Origin: Candidatus Rokuibacteriota bacterium
GTDB taxonomy: Bacteria > Methylomirabilota > Methylomirabilia > Rokubacteriales > CSP1-6
Direction: 5' to 3'
Length of the DNA stretch: 64,000 nucleotides
Assembly (NCBI GenBank): GCA_003221695.1
Contig: QHSX01000056.1
Span: 1-64,000 of the forward strand
Numbering within the stretch: position 1 is the first letter of the stretch; each line of letters starts with the position of its first letter. This document shows, piece after piece, positions 2,028-58,785 of this stretch. The translations under genes and the position numbers were made by a program. The notes under the pieces were generated by a model. It saw only the letters and a program-made list of their open reading frames with translations. It made no database searches and was not told the origin of the DNA.

Positions 2028-2786
2028 TCACGTGTAGTTCGGGTTGCGCTTCTCGAGAAACGCCCGCACGCCTTCCTTGAAGTGTTCGCTCTTCCGCACG
2101 CGGTCGCCGAGCTTCTGCTCCAGCGCTTCGCGCGACGCCGCGTGGTCGGCGATGGTGCTGCTGATCTGCTGCTTGACCGCCTGCACGGCGGTCGGGCTGT
2201 TGGCGGCGATGGTCGCCGCCGTCTCCAGCGCCCACGGGATGAGCGCGTCCGCCTCCACCACGCGATTGACGAGCCCGATCCGCGCCGCCTCCGCGGCGTC
2301 GATCAGCCGGGCCGTCAGCAGCAGCTCCATGGCGTGGGCGTAGCCGATCTGCTGGACCAGCTTCACGGTCGCGCCGCCGAACGGATAGATCGACCAGCGG
2401 ACCTCGGGCAGGCCGAGGCGCGCGTGCGGCGCCGCCGCCCGGACGTCGGTCGAGAGCAGGAGTTCGAGGCCTCCAGCGACGCAATCCCCGTTCACTGCCG
2501 CAACGATCGGCTTCGCGTACGCGCGATTCTTGAGCAGCGCGTGATTGACGATGCTCGCCGTCTCCGGGTCGGCGGAGAGATCGCCGCTCATGTCGGCGCC
2601 CGAGCTGAACGCGCGCTCGCCCGCCCCGGTGAGGATGATGCAGCGACAGGTGCCGTCGAGCTCGAGCCTGTCCCAGAGTGCGGCCAGCTCCGCCATCATG
2701 GCGCGCGGCATGGCATTGCGGCGCGGCTGGTTGTCGATGGTGACGACGACGACGTGCGGCGCGTGCTGCCGGACGCGAAGCTCCAT
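2028..2786 (-). CDS. Enoyl-CoA hydratase/isomerase (crotonase) family protein
   Basis: Crotonase-fold enzyme of 252 residues, a usual length for the family, expected to hydrate or isomerise an acyl-CoA in the cytoplasm. The two oxyanion-hole segments are visible: AFSSGADMSGD near residue 62 and AAVNGDCVAGGLELLLSTD near residue 100. Both positions that hold the catalytic glutamates in enoyl-CoA hydratase are Glu (GGLEL and LPEVRW), so hydratase activity is plausible. Its ATG shares one base with the TGA of the upstream quinone oxidoreductase, and the binding-protein gene follows within 12 bases, so the three genes look like one operon. Exact acyl-CoA substrate unknown. Confidence 0.9.
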   Translation of the reverse strand: MELRVRQHAPHVVVVTIDNQPRRNAMPRAMMAELAALWDRLELDGTCRCIILTGAGERAFSSGADMSGDLSADPETASIVNHALLKNRAYAKPIVAAVNGDCVAGGLELLLSTDVRAAAPHARLGLPEVRWSIYPFGGATVKLVQQIGYAHAMELLLTARLIDAAEAARIGLVNRVVEADALIPWALETAATIAANSPTAVQAVKQQISSTIADHAASREALEQKLGDRVRKSEHFKEGVRAFLEKRNPNYT

Positions 2787-3769
2787 CAGGCCCGCAGCTC
2801 CGGCATGACGACGACCTTGCCGTGCGCCTTGCGGTCGGTGAGCAGGCGAATGGCCTCGGCGCCGCGCTCGAGCGGCAGCCGATGGGTGACGAGCGGCTTC
2901 AGCGTGCCCTTCGCGTACCACTCGAGCAGCTCCTCGACAGACCGACGGAGCTTGTCCGGCGCGTGCCAACGGAAGTAGCGAAGCGACGAGCCGAGCGCCG
3001 CCCGATGCTTCACGAGCAGCCGGTTGGCGGGAATATGCGGGACCCCCCCGACGAAGCCGATCAGAAGCATGCGTCCGCCCCAGCCGAGCGAGGACAGCGC
3101 GGCGTCGAAGCGATCGCCGCCGACGGGATCGAAGCACACGTCGGCGCCTTTACCGTCCGTGAGCTCCATGACACGCTCGGTCAGCTTCTCCGTGGCGTAG
3201 TCGATGCTCGCGTCCGCGCCGCGCTCGCGCGCCACCGCCAGCTTCTCCGCGGTGCTGGCGCCGGCGATGACGCGCGCGCCCATCGCCTTGCCGATCTCCA
3301 CCGCCGTCAGGCCGACGCCGCCCGCGGCGCCCAGCACCAGCAGCGTCTCGCCGGCCAGGAGCCGCCCCTGCCAGCGGATCGCCGCGTGGCTGGAGATGTA
3401 GGCGATCGGAAACGCGCCCGCCTCGTCGAACGGCATCGCCTCGGGGATGGCGAACGTCTCGGCTTCGTCCGCCAGCGCCTGCTCCGCGAACCCGCCGTAG
3501 GCGAGAATCGCCATCACGCGGTCGCCGGTCTTGAAGCGGGTCACGCCCGCCCCACTGCGCGTCACCACGCCGGCGGTCTCGAGGCCGGGACTGAAGGGGA
3601 ACGGCGGGCGCGTCTGGTAGCGGCCAGCCACCATGATGGAGTCCGCGTAGTTCACGCCCGTCGCCTTGACGTCGATCACCAGCTGGCCAGGGCCGGGCGT
3701 TGGCGGCGCCACGTCCTCGAGCTTGAGGTCGTCGACGGGTCCCCACGCGCGGCAGATCACGGCTCTCAT
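2786..3769 (-). CDS. Zinc-independent NADPH:quinone oxidoreductase-like MDR protein
   Basis: Medium-chain dehydrogenase/reductase of 327 residues without zinc-binding cysteines, as in the quinone oxidoreductase and crotonyl-CoA reductase-like branch. The N-terminal GroES-like domain has GVNYADSIMVAGRYQ and PFSPGLETAGVV. The Rossmann domain has the nucleotide motif LGAAGGVGLTAVEIGKAMGA, and FDPVGGDRFD follows. Start taken at ATG 3769 because MRAVICRAWGP matches the family N-terminus; the frame remains open 48 bases upstream. It is the first gene of the minus-strand block with the crotonase, and divergent from the luciferase-like gene. A paralogue lies at 45223-46197. Confidence 0.9.
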   Translation of the reverse strand: MRAVICRAWGPVDDLKLEDVAPPTPGPGQLVIDVKATGVNYADSIMVAGRYQTRPPFPFSPGLETAGVVTRSGAGVTRFKTGDRVMAILAYGGFAEQALADEAETFAIPEAMPFDEAGAFPIAYISSHAAIRWQGRLLAGETLLVLGAAGGVGLTAVEIGKAMGARVIAGASTAEKLAVARERGADASIDYATEKLTERVMELTDGKGADVCFDPVGGDRFDAALSSLGWGGRMLLIGFVGGVPHIPANRLLVKHRAALGSSLRYFRWHAPDKLRRSVEELLEWYAKGTLKPLVTHRLPLERGAEAIRLLTDRKAHGKVVVMPELRA

Positions 3770-51611: not shown

Positions 51612-51639
51612 TTGACCGGGGGCGGGCCGGCAGGATAAT
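51612..51639 (+). promoter_or_regulatory. Sigma-70 promoter of the fluoride riboswitch unit
   Basis: TTGACC (51612-51617) and GATAAT (51634-51639) with 16-base spacing. Predicted start about 51646, 9 bases before the aptamer begins at 51655. The 280-base gap 51468-51747 holds only this regulatory unit. Confidence 0.6.
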
Positions 51640-51654
51640 CGGGGAGATAACGAA

Positions 51655-51711
51655 GGGCGATGGGGTTCGCCCGAAACCGCCTCGCGGCTCGCGAGGCTGA
51701 TGACCCCTACC
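51655..51711 (+). ncRNA. Fluoride riboswitch (crcB motif) aptamer
   Basis: The aptamer has the crcB-motif order. P1 GGGCG/CGCCC (51655-51659 with 51668-51672) closes a loop with ATGGGGTT. Then CGAAAC and an 8-bp hairpin GCCTCGCG/CGCGAGGC (51679-51697) follow, then TGATGACCCCTACC. The loop bases GGGGT (51662-51666) can pair with ACCCC (51703-51707), forming the pseudoknot that binds fluoride with magnesium. The order GGGCGATG, GAAAC and CTGATG(A)..CTAC matches known fluoride riboswitches. The 3' strand of the pseudoknot is also the left arm of the downstream terminator, so fluoride would favour read-through. Confidence 0.88.
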
Positions 51712-51735
51712 GGGCAAGCACCGGTAGGGGTTTTT
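51703..51735 (+). terminator. Intrinsic terminator forming the riboswitch expression platform
   Basis: ACCCCTACCGG (51703-51713) pairs with CCGGTAGGGGT (51721-51731) around GCAAGCA, followed by a T-run (51731-51735). It overlaps the aptamer's pseudoknot strand, the usual design of a fluoride ON switch. The gene's ATG lies 12 bases downstream. Confidence 0.85.
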
Positions 51736-51747
51736 AATCGGGGGCGG

Positions 51748-52905
51748 ATGGAAAACCTCCTGATCGCCGTGATCGCGGGGCTGCTCGTCCTCCTGGCGAG
51801 CGTGGCCTCCGTCGAGCTCGGCGTCTCGGTCGCGCTGATCGAGATCAGCCTGGGCGTCGTCGCCGGGAACTTCCTCGGCCTGACGAGCCCGCCGTGGATG
51901 GACTTCCTCGCGGCGTTCGGCAGCATCCTCCTGACCTTCCTCGCCGGCGCGGAAGTCGATGCGCGGGTCATGCAGGAGAAGCTCAAGGAGAGCGTGCTGA
52001 TCGGCGGCCTCTCCTTCGCGGCCCCGTTCGTGGGCGCCTGGCTCTTCTGCGCCTGGGTGCTCGGCTGGTCGACGCCCGCGGCGCAAATCGCCGGCGTCGC
52101 GCTTTCAACGACGTCCCTCGCCGTCGTCTACACCGTGCTGGTCGAGACCGGGCTGACCCTGACGCCGATCGGCAAGCTCATCATGGCCTCCACCTTCGTG
52201 ACCGACTTCGGCACCGCGTTGGCACTGGCGCTCCTCTTCATCCGACCGACATGGTGGCTCGTGCCGTTCCTCGGCGTCTCGGTGCTGGTCATCTGGGCCA
52301 TGGTCGCGCTCCAGCCGTGGTTTTTCGCGCGTTACGGCGAGCGGGTGATCGAGCCCGAGATCAAAGGGGCCGTGGCCGCTCTGCTCGTGCTGATGTTCTT
52401 CGCGGACAAGGCGCAGAGCCACGCCGTCCTCCCCGCGTTCGTGCTTGGGCTGGCGGTCGCGAGGATCTTCCACGAGCATCCCGAGCTGACGCGCCGCTTC
52501 CGCGTCGTCGCGTTCGCCCTGCTCACACCGTTCTTCTTCCTCAAGGGCGGCATGAACGTCTCGCTCAAACTGGTCTGGGCGAATCTCGGCCTGCTGGGGC
52601 TCCTCTTTACCGTCAAGCAGGTCACGAAGATTGCGGGCGTGTACCCGCTGGCGAAACGCTGGGTGCCCGTCAACGCGATGTTCACCACATTGCTCATGTC
52701 CACGGGGTTGACCTTCGGGACGATCTCCTCACTCTACGGCCTCAACGCGGGCATCCTCGACCGGGCGCAGTTCTCGGTGCTCGTGACCGTGGTCGTGGCG
52801 AGCGCGGTGATCCCGACGGTCATCGCCCAGCGCTGGTTCTCTCCGGGTCCGGCGCTCCGTCGTGCCGCTCCGCCCTCGGCGAGCCCTGCTCCCCCGGGGC
52901 GATGA
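51748..52905 (+). CDS. CPA2-type cation/proton antiporter under fluoride riboswitch control
   Basis: A 385-residue membrane antiporter-like protein with about ten to twelve hydrophobic segments. CPA2 marks: IEISLGVVAGNFLGL, ILLTFLAGAEVDARVM, LSTTSLAVVYTVLVETG, TFVTDFGTALALALLF and FFLKGGMNVSLKLVW. ATG 51748 with GGGGGCGG before. Na+/H+ antiporter-like genes are a known class of fluoride-riboswitch-regulated genes besides crcB/fluc and ClC-F. The C-terminal 20 residues are Pro/Ala-rich. Function probably fluoride (or related anion or pH stress) relief; transported ion unproven. Confidence 0.85.
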   Translation: MENLLIAVIAGLLVLLASVASVELGVSVALIEISLGVVAGNFLGLTSPPWMDFLAAFGSILLTFLAGAEVDARVMQEKLKESVLIGGLSFAAPFVGAWLFCAWVLGWSTPAAQIAGVALSTTSLAVVYTVLVETGLTLTPIGKLIMASTFVTDFGTALALALLFIRPTWWLVPFLGVSVLVIWAMVALQPWFFARYGERVIEPEIKGAVAALLVLMFFADKAQSHAVLPAFVLGLAVARIFHEHPELTRRFRVVAFALLTPFFFLKGGMNVSLKLVWANLGLLGLLFTVKQVTKIAGVYPLAKRWVPVNAMFTTLLMSTGLTFGTISSLYGLNAGILDRAQFSVLVTVVVASAVIPTVIAQRWFSPGPALRRAAPPSASPAPPGR

Positions 52906-52982: not shown

Positions 52983-53550
52983 CTACCGTTGTTCTGCGCG
53001 GCCGTCCCGGCGGCCCACGTCGTCCCCGCCGGCCCGCGGGCGAAAGCCGATCGTGCGGTGCCCGACGGTTCGCGGCGACATGAGTTGCCGAATGGCGTCG
53101 AAGACGACTTTGAACTGAGCGTCGTATTTTTTCTCGAGTGCGCCCAGCTTGCGGGCGAGCGATTCATTCGAGGTGAGCAACCCACGCAGTCGCACGAAGG
53201 CCCGTATGATCGCAATGTTGGCCTGGATGGCACGAGGACTCCGAAGGACGCTCGACAGCATAGCGACGCCATGTTCGGTGAAAGCGTATGGCAGCTAGCG
53301 CCTGCCGGCCCCGTCCCACGTTTGAGGTCACGATTTGTGACCTCAAACGGACGGCCTCTTCGGCCGTCAGTCGGAACATGAAATCACCAGGGAAGCGAGC
53401 CGAGTTACGCTTAACCGCCTGTATGAGGACTTTCGTCGGCACGCCGTACAGTACGGCGAGATCGGCATCTAGCATGACCTTCTGAGCGCGGACCAGAAGT
53501 ATCGCGCGCTCGATACGCTGGGCTGCGAGGATCGCGTTCCGCGTGGGCAT
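52983..53550 (-). pseudogene. ORF6N (KilA-N-type) domain protein, broken by frameshift and nonsense mutation
   Basis: The N-terminal part (from ATG 53550) is a normal ORF6N domain: ERAILLVRAQKVMLDADLAVLYGVPTKV and KRNSARFPGDFMFRLTAEEA. After SNVGRG the frame shifts at an extra C. The continuation [17 protein letters not shown] and its helical tail ([18 protein letters not shown]) lie in another frame, preceded there by a TAG where a Tyr is expected. Thus one frameshift plus one nonsense change. Such genes are usual on phages and mobile elements; the intact protein would be about 185 residues. Confidence 0.75.
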
Positions 53551-57182: not shown

Positions 57183-57583
57183 GGGTTTTCCTAGACACAA
57201 ACGTCTTGGTCAGCGCCCTTGCAACCCGGGGGGTGTGCGCAGATGTACTGCGCGTGGTGCTTGCCGAACACAGCCTCGTAACGAGCGAGGTGGTGCTGAG
57301 AGAACTTGGGCGCGTGCTGAGGAAGCGAATCGGCCTGCCGCCGGGGGCCATCAAAGAGATTGACGAGTTCCTGCGGGAGCACGAGGTGGCTCCGAAACCG
57401 GCAGCGCCAGCGGCGCTTCCAAAGCGTGACCCAGGCGATCAGTGGGTCCTGGCCTCTGCAATCGAGAGCCGCGCAGACGTGCTGGTGACTGGCGATCGAG
57501 ATCTTCTGGATATCGCTGTCGCCGCTCCCATCAAGATCATTGACCCTCGAGGGTTTTGGGACCTCGTCCGCAAGAACGGGTAG
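57179..57583 (+). CDS. PIN-domain toxin (VapC-like, COG1569-type)
   Basis: A 134-residue PIN nuclease: Asp in FLDTNVLVSAL, Glu in VVLRELGRVL, Asp in RDPGDQWVLASAI and Asp in LVTGDRDLLDI form the metal site, so catalysis is likely intact. TTG start overlaps the antitoxin stop. Such toxins cleave tRNA or rRNA. Its end overlaps the following cytochrome frame. Confidence 0.85.
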   Translation: MRVFLDTNVLVSALATRGVCADVLRVVLAEHSLVTSEVVLRELGRVLRKRIGLPPGAIKEIDEFLREHEVAPKPAAPAALPKRDPGDQWVLASAIESRADVLVTGDRDLLDIAVAAPIKIIDPRGFWDLVRKNG

Positions 57584-58785
57584 CAACTCCTTATGCGGCA
57601 GCGATCGCTGCGCTGGCGATGCTCGGCTTCGTCACCGCCGCCGGCGCCGACACGATCCAGGAGTTCCTCGTCCGCCACTGGCGCCAGCCGCTCGCATCCC
57701 AGGGCCCGCCGCCGGGGCGCTTCTCCACGCTCGAGGCCTCGCTCGCGCCCGAGGCGTGCGGCGCCTGTCATCCCGCGCAGCTCGCCGACTGGAGGACGAG
57801 CCTCCATTCGCGATCCATGGGGCCAGGGGTCGCAGGCCAGCTCGTCGAGATGCTCGAGAGCGATCCCGGGTCAGCGCTGAGCTGCTTCACGTGCCACGCG
57901 CCCCTCGCCGAGCAGGCGCCGCGCGTCGCCGACGGCGCGCGAGCTCGCGCGAACCCGGTTTACGATGCCGCCCTCGGCGCCAGAGGGCTCGTGTGCGCGG
58001 GCTGCCACGTCCGCGCCCACCAGCGATTCGGCCCACCGCGCCGCGACGGCTCGCTCACCCCGACCGCGCCGCTCGAGACCCTTCCGCACAACGGCGTGAC
58101 GCGCACCCCGGCGTTTCTTCGGTCCGAGTTCTGCCAGAGCTGCCACCAGTTCACGCCCGACGGCTTCGCGCTGAACGGCAAGCTCCTCGAGAACACGTAC
58201 CGGGAGTGGAAGGCGAGCCGCTTCGCGCGCGAGGGCGTCCAGTGCCAGGACTGCCACATGCCCGACCGCCGCCATCTGTGGCGCGGCATTCACGATCCCG
58301 AGATGGTGCGCTCCGGCCTCACGATCGACGCGAGCGCCGGCGCTTCACGTTACCGGCCGGGCGAGATCGTGTCCGTCACCCTCACCGTCGAGAGCACGCG
58401 CGTCGGCCACGCCTTCCCGACGTATGTCACGCCGCGCGTCGTGCTGAGCGCCGAGCTGGTGGACCAGGCGGGAGAGGTGATCGCGGGGAGCCGGCAGGAA
58501 AAGGTGATCGCGCGGGAGGTGACGCTCGACCTCGCCCGCGAAGTCGGCGATACGCGGCTCATGCCCGGCGCCAAGGCGGTCCTGCGCTATCAGTGGCGCG
58601 TCGATCGCGCGGGGGTTCGCGCTCGCCTCAGCGTCGTGGTGTACCCGGACGAGTTCTACACGCGCTTCTTCGAGAGCCTCCTGGCCCAGGGCGCCGGCCG
58701 CGGGGAGGCCCAGATCCGCGAGGCGCTCACGGCGACCCGCCGCTCGCCCTTCACGGTGTTCGACCGCGAGATCCCGCTGACCTGA
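57556..58785 (+). CDS. Multihaem cytochrome c with five CxxCH motifs, N-terminus compromised
   Basis: About 400 residues. Five haem motifs CGACH, CFTCH, CAGCH, CQSCH and CQDCH in the first 240 residues, as in cytochrome c-554-like and related proteins; the final 150 residues form a beta-domain (GEIVSVTLTVESTRVGHAFPTYVTPRVVLSAEL). The only upstream start (TTG 57556) lies inside the PIN toxin gene and gives a poor leader. The true hydrophobic signal (AAIAALAMLGFVTAAGA) lacks its natural start and ribosome site. Insertion of the toxin-antitoxin pair probably cut off the original start, so expression may be lost or driven by read-through. Confidence 0.7.
   Translation: MGPRPQERVATPYAAAIAALAMLGFVTAAGADTIQEFLVRHWRQPLASQGPPPGRFSTLEASLAPEACGACHPAQLADWRTSLHSRSMGPGVAGQLVEMLESDPGSALSCFTCHAPLAEQAPRVADGARARANPVYDAALGARGLVCAGCHVRAHQRFGPPRRDGSLTPTAPLETLPHNGVTRTPAFLRSEFCQSCHQFTPDGFALNGKLLENTYREWKASRFAREGVQCQDCHMPDRRHLWRGIHDPEMVRSGLTIDASAGASRYRPGEIVSVTLTVESTRVGHAFPTYVTPRVVLSAELVDQAGEVIAGSRQEKVIAREVTLDLAREVGDTRLMPGAKAVLRYQWRVDRAGVRARLSVVVYPDEFYTRFFESLLAQGAGRGEAQIREALTATRRSPFTVFDREIPLT

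Follow-up and report, generated by a model that had tools for sequence, protein, structure and literature searches.

A fluoride riboswitch is predicted to control, as its sole target, an antiporter of the Na_H_Exchanger superfamily in the window (the whole stretch of DNA that was analysed, 64,000 nucleotides), and this protein falls into a discrete clade that tends to occur where the exporter CrcB is missing. The case for this antiporter being a dedicated, switch-controlled fluoride-detoxification transporter, most likely working by F−/H+ antiport, stands about even. Currently, fluoride export is credited to two protein families only, CrcB and CLC-F, which are still the sole exporters listed in a 2026 paper (PMC13104614), and antiporters linked to the riboswitch are interpreted as aids to pH control. 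That fluoride riboswitches may precede antiporters is already known, and Na+/H+ antiporters were ranked in a 2024 review as the next most common associated class after exporters (PMC11139923). Such an antiporter had been assigned by the original prediction to a 'rarer class', which understates a class that comes next in frequency and includes a distinct clade in many phyla. The components of the unit are listed below, with positions in the window.

51612 to 51639, + strand: sigma-70-type promoter, TTGACC-16-GATAAT (consensus scan; hexamers kept in most close relatives)
51612 to 51617, + strand: −35 hexamer TTGACC, followed by the 16-nt spacer
51634 to 51639, + strand: −10 hexamer GATAAT, ending seven bases 5′ of the aptamer
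51647 to 51716, + strand: fluoride riboswitch aptamer (crcB RNA motif; Rfam RF01734, 54.7 bits, E 2e-12)
51655 to 51672, + strand: first aptamer hairpin (MFE fold; one pair covarying), its loop carrying the pseudoknot strand GGGGT at 51662–51666
51679 to 51697, + strand: second aptamer hairpin, GCCTCGCG-GCT-CGCGAGGC (MFE fold; covariation at two of four counted pairs)
51703 to 51707, + strand: pseudoknot strand ACCCC, partner of 51662–51666, within the left arm of the terminator (covariation)
51702 to 51735, + strand: intrinsic terminator, 12-bp stem 51702–51713/51721–51732, 7-nt loop, T5 at 51731–51735
51740 to 51744, + strand: possible ribosome-binding site GGGGG near the start codon (sequence only)
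51748 to 52905, + strand: antiporter ORF, Na_H_Exchanger superfamily, 385 aa, fluoride-riboswitch-linked clade (Pfam PF00999, E 4.6e-31)

The covariance search with RF01734 gave a significant match, above the gathering score of 34 bits and over the full length of the model (1–64); among Rfam families, only the Fluoride model is matched in the 64-kb window. Across 34 aligned sequences, 98.9% of the aptamer cells pair, a level that shuffles and slid registers came nowhere near. In the five-pair pseudoknot helix (GGGGT/ACCCC), all 170 cells are standard pairs in the 34 sequences and both sides have changed at four of the five pairs; the terminator helix follows a similar pattern, its stem being retained with covariation in 34 relatives. 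When loop, pseudoknot strand and terminator segment are read together, the triplet GGGGT/ACCCC/GGGGT is found in 15 of the 34 switches and GGAGT/ACTCC/GGAGT in 10, while the remaining nine display eight further combinations in which the segments vary in concert. Since ACCCC pairs with the loop GGGGT or with the right arm of the terminator, but never with both, the logic is that of an ON switch. A transcriptional ON switch is thus well supported by the three-way covariation and the Rfam match, which also uphold the earlier placement of the pseudoknot strand in the left arm of the terminator.

The MFE fold of 51647–51737 consists of the two aptamer hairpins and the terminator (−53.1 kcal/mol, z −6.2), and the terminator on its own reaches −24.1 kcal/mol (z −6.0). 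Rfam score, shuffles and covariation rule out a chance hairpin. The consensus terminator scan did not list the 51702–51732 stem, probably because the T-run overlaps the end of the stem, and its terminator-like match on the minus strand is the first aptamer hairpin. The promoter agrees with the consensus at 10 of 12 positions (one found versus 0.1 expected in shuffles); in most close relatives both hexamers are retained and the spacer between them differs, a pattern expected of a functional promoter, and from its position transcription would start near 51646–51647. Promoter, pseudoknot and overlapping terminator are located where they had been predicted to be, as judged by consensus scan, covariation and stem energy, and the spacing given for the terminator is correct, with 12 bases separating the last T of the T-run (51735) from the antiporter ATG (51748).

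Aptamer, pseudoknot and overlapping intrinsic terminator are likewise combined in RF01734, and terminators overlapping the crcB motif were already described in 2010 (PMC2864571). The differences are at the level of detail only, with GGGGT/ACCCC instead of the consensus pseudoknot GGAGT/ACTCC, and G+C-rich stems. Decay or repurposing of the aptamer, with loss of switching, is very improbable, given that conserved aptamer positions, pseudoknot, terminator and promoter are all intact and covary in relatives. By analogy with its Rfam family, the RNA at 51647–51716 is expected to respond to fluoride. When fluoride is absent, the 51702–51732 hairpin would form and transcription would stop 12 bases 5′ of the start codon; when Mg/F− is bound, the pseudoknot would sequester the left arm of the terminator, so that the antiporter would be made.

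The host is a soil bacterium, and those of its relatives that bear a name belong to Candidatus Rokubacteria. Its genome (4.6 Mb, 109 contigs, 100% complete) contains exactly one fluoride riboswitch. Searches that detect CrcB and CLC in most control genomes found neither CrcB/Fluc nor CLC here, and no known exporter turned up in another part of the genome. The sole-target claim is thereby upheld and even strengthened. Two other Na_H_Exchanger genes are present in the genome, and no fluoride riboswitch lies within 1.5 kb on either side of them; the second of these paralogues (C91) was left out of the motif comparison because its reading frame was wrong. The antiporter seems to be transcribed on its own; the gene downstream is convergent with it. 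This neighbour is an interrupted ORF6N-domain gene (window 52983–53550, − strand), apparently split by a frame change, with the domain in 53164–53550 and the second part, 52983–53261, in another frame. Farther away, 57556–58785 (+ strand) probably encodes a multihaem cytochrome, with several motifs resembling CxxCH.

The antiporter matches PF00999 with 108.5 bits against a cut-off of 26.2. This is its sole Pfam match, and no PF02537 or PF00654 domain (CrcB/Fluc and CLC-F families) is present. Its start, M/V-E-N-L-L, is conserved in close relatives. The AlphaFold2 model (pLDDT 86.5, pTM 0.85) has a CPA fold with NapA as the best PDB matches, and no solved structure is closer, in sequence (profile E 8e-15) or in fold, than NapA of Thermus (PDB 4bwz, 5bz2 and 5bz3). 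The label 'CPA2' given to the protein in the original prediction holds insofar as PF00999 fits well; the NCBIfam CPA2 subfamily model TIGR00932, however, gives only 92 bits against a cut-off of 238.3, and the ion-site motif is unlike that of NapA. For these two reasons plain 'CPA2' needs care, and by sequence the protein is best described as CPA2-like through its relationship to NapA only. A phage origin was rejected, the matches being weak and partial.

Identity to NapA is ~20–22%. NapA has a D-D pair at the ion site and M at the position equivalent to 266, whereas the antiporter lacks the pair and has T152-D153: the second Asp is retained, the first is replaced by T/N in the clade, K/R is usually added at 266, and STGLTFG stands in place of an RGE-containing stretch. 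The TM10 lysine of NapA is kept, its counterpart being K294, and K266 is typical of the clade. Among 59 clade members, D153 and K294 are invariant (59/59), T or N occupies position 152 in all 59, and K or R occupies position 266 in 54, the other five having N or V; a stretch MSTGLTFGTIS is near-constant. An ion site that has lost the first Asp but kept two basic residues would be suited to an anion; T/N-D, however, is also compatible with an electroneutral cation antiporter.

This last point introduces a serious rival, quite plausible in our estimation, according to which the protein is an ordinary electroneutral Na+ or K+/H+ antiporter that is induced by fluoride as a helper and moves no fluoride itself. 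It could restore cytoplasmic pH after HF entry or, working in reverse, admit H+ and thereby reduce the pH gradient by which F− is trapped inside. The nearest solved folds, NapA, PaNhaP and KefC, speak for it, as the solved relatives are cation/H+ antiporters. The N-D motif, which T/N-D resembles, is also found in electroneutral cation/proton antiporters. The K+/H+ exchanger KefC (8bxg and 9emb) shares the fold of the antiporter (TM ~0.73) and is likewise reported to have a single Asp at the ion site, but has a C-terminal regulatory domain that the antiporter lacks, and a PDB sequence search with the antiporter returned no KefC match. In the 2024 review, riboswitch-linked Na+/H+ antiporters are taken to act in pH homeostasis, with acidification as an adaptation (PMC11139923). 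CrcB/Fluc channels and CLC-F F−/H+ antiporters, for their part, have folds unrelated to that of the antiporter and share with it a likely role and riboswitch control.

The antiporter gene recurs in Rokubacteria, Acidobacteriota, Chloroflexota, Bacillota, Armatimonadota, Eisenbacteria and KSB1, and more distant clade members on plasmids of Enterobacteriaceae, Rubrobacter, Rhizobium and Methylocystis. By sequence comparison the clade is discrete and well supported, and it covers at least eight phyla in addition to plasmids. In the tree all members are united on a long branch (SH-aLRT 100), while the exact neighbour is unsure owing to a quick method and long outgroup branches. Among the plasmid matches listed, identities are ~40% or more (E <1e-46) or else, over the length of the domain, ~32% or less (E >1e-8), the gap between being empty save for one short fragment.

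Most clade members sit behind a fluoride riboswitch. Acidobacterial homologues have one over the Rfam cut-off in the fetched neighbourhood in 22 of 25 cases, and so does each of the five plasmid loci tested initially, from Enterobacter, Rubrobacter, Rhizobium and two Methylocystis; at a sixth, of Methylocystis iwaonis, no fluoride riboswitch was found within 4 kb. Riboswitches over the cut-off were also found at L042, L044 and L045, among the Armatimonadota, Eisenbacteria and KSB1 homologues, and sub-threshold matches in the right position at L040, L041 and L043. No riboswitch accompanies clade copies L035 and L038, and none lies in the stretch fetched for L066 and L068. The antiporters outside the clade, among those checked, have no fluoride riboswitch in front. 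The Chloroflexota homologue L040:3001-4110, where the riboswitch match is weak, departs at several residues that are invariant elsewhere, with D153 replaced by G, STTS by SDTS, and an altered MSTGLTFG, and is possibly decaying.

In Rokubacteria the riboswitch lies either directly 5′ of the antiporter or 5′ of an operon that opens with a DUF6062- or dynamin-family gene and continues with the antiporter; these operons often include a universal stress protein and sometimes CrcB and DUF190. The universal stress protein, and enolase or MutS as partners elsewhere, show a broad response to fluoride damage, which would suit a protein that exports a fluoride complex (e.g. metal-fluoride), another toxic fluoride by-product or HF instead of free F−. 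Such a cargo is nevertheless improbable, the sequence giving no hint of a larger substrate and the length and fold being standard for CPA proteins.

Among 95 genomes of the phylum, CrcB is found in none of the 20 with a close homologue versus 29 of the 75 others (Fisher p 0.0002). The effect persists when labels are permuted within genus (p 0.0056, or 0.00035 when a second branch of ~45% identity is included), and in genus g6 six genomes have CrcB only and three the antiporter only. Assembly gaps are an unlikely cause, as 15 of the 20 close-homologue genomes are at least 90% complete and CrcB is in none. A CLC match occurs in two of the 20 (G067 and G001), one of them fragmentary. Among six non-Rokubacterial genomes with a homologue, four lack both CrcB and CLC. 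In Acidobacteriota, an independent phylum, CrcB accompanies the clade in 5 of 24 genomes versus 198 of 372 without it (p 0.0017), and 2 of 11 when only closer homologues are counted (p 0.025); both figures are uncorrected for relatedness, and the test counts mostly the branch able to sit beside CrcB. Clade members share an operon with CrcB in two Rokubacteria (G039 and G062), in Methylocystis sp. MJC1 and in one acidobacterium, so that the two proteins are not strictly interchangeable. Moreover, CrcB absence alone proves little, because many genomes are devoid of CrcB, CLC and the clade antiporter alike.

How these data divide the two main readings can be stated briefly. The adjacency of some clade members to CrcB favours a cation/H+ helper, as does the crcB-eno operon of a Listeria plasmid, which includes a canonical DD antiporter. 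This explanation alone, however, does not account for CrcB replacement within single genera, nor for a genome with two other Na_H_Exchanger genes that keeps one such gene behind its sole fluoride riboswitch; in addition, canonical antiporters near fluoride genes have DD and no K/R266. It is chiefly the within-genus replacement of CrcB that places fluoride export slightly ahead. Concerning fluoride export, we infer the transported ion, its direction and the roles of D153, K294 and K266. The antiporter would take the role held elsewhere by CrcB/Fluc or CLC-F, its CPA fold coupling expulsion of F− to entry of H+; D153 would carry the proton, and an anion would be favoured by K294 and K266, two conserved basic residues (position 266 being K/R in most members). 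By extension, and with a likelihood just short of even, the clade may represent a third, unrecognised class of bacterial fluoride exporters, namely CPA-fold F−/H+ antiporters replacing CrcB in whole lineages.

The riboswitch-associated Na+/H+ antiporters of Baker 2012, as cited in PMC11139923, present the same gene association and may include clade members. Relative to that set, as it is cited there, the present case adds a discrete clade with its own signature, CrcB depletion, and a sole target in a CrcB/CLC-free genome. In the literature searched, mostly without subscription papers, no description of the clade, of its signature or of complementarity to CrcB was found, and the literature found holds no transport or growth results for the clade. 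With a single switch on one antiporter in an exporter-free genome, together with CrcB depletion, the cargo of these antiporters, a long-standing question, becomes directly testable. If the cargo is fluoride, a cation-moving fold has been turned into an anion exporter, and the signature T/N-D, K/R266 and STGLTFG could re-annotate many 'cation:proton antiporter' genes, including plasmid genes of Klebsiella, Enterobacter, Citrobacter and E. coli.

The idea that all antiporters near fluoride genes form one clade is refuted by canonical DD antiporters on Listeria and Priestia plasmids. Together with that of Lactococcus, these show DD and the RGE stretch and lack a basic residue at 266; no fluoride riboswitch lies in front of the Listeria or Priestia plasmid antiporters, the Priestia plasmid riboswitch preceding crcB instead. 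On the Listeria plasmid, the canonical DD antiporter belongs to a crcB-crcB-eno operon, and its start is overlapped by a marginal match to the Na+ riboswitch RF03071 (L132:2314-2357, 40.9 versus 40.5 bits).

Several loci merit mention in their own right. On an Enterobacter plasmid (L078:5720-9352), a fluoride riboswitch, a clade antiporter, a universal stress protein and MutS adjoin arsenic resistance, and a 94% copy of the first part of this unit occurs in 1 of 5,426 E. coli genomes, on a plasmid from wastewater. DUF6062 proteins lie repeatedly 3′ of Rokubacterial fluoride riboswitches (L097:2762-3859, L083:4806-5873, L093, L095:2246-3307 and L096:4499-5323), often as the first gene before the antiporter; they have a CPVC motif near the N-terminus, and Pfam PF19538 was matched in the one tested. 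The best matches of a literature text search for DUF6062 with fluoride do not name DUF6062. Dynamin-family GTPases occur directly behind fluoride riboswitches or later in the operon (L085:3375-5066, L092:30-1817, L094 and L095:4408-6132), followed in one case by the antiporter, CrcB and DUF190. Finally, four fluoride riboswitches are found within ~4.3 kb, on both strands, in a single genome (L087; G079:C6:33047-37357), and in an acidobacterium (L039) two riboswitches, 2614–2680 (− strand) and 2745–2819 (+ strand), stand back to back, 64 bases apart.
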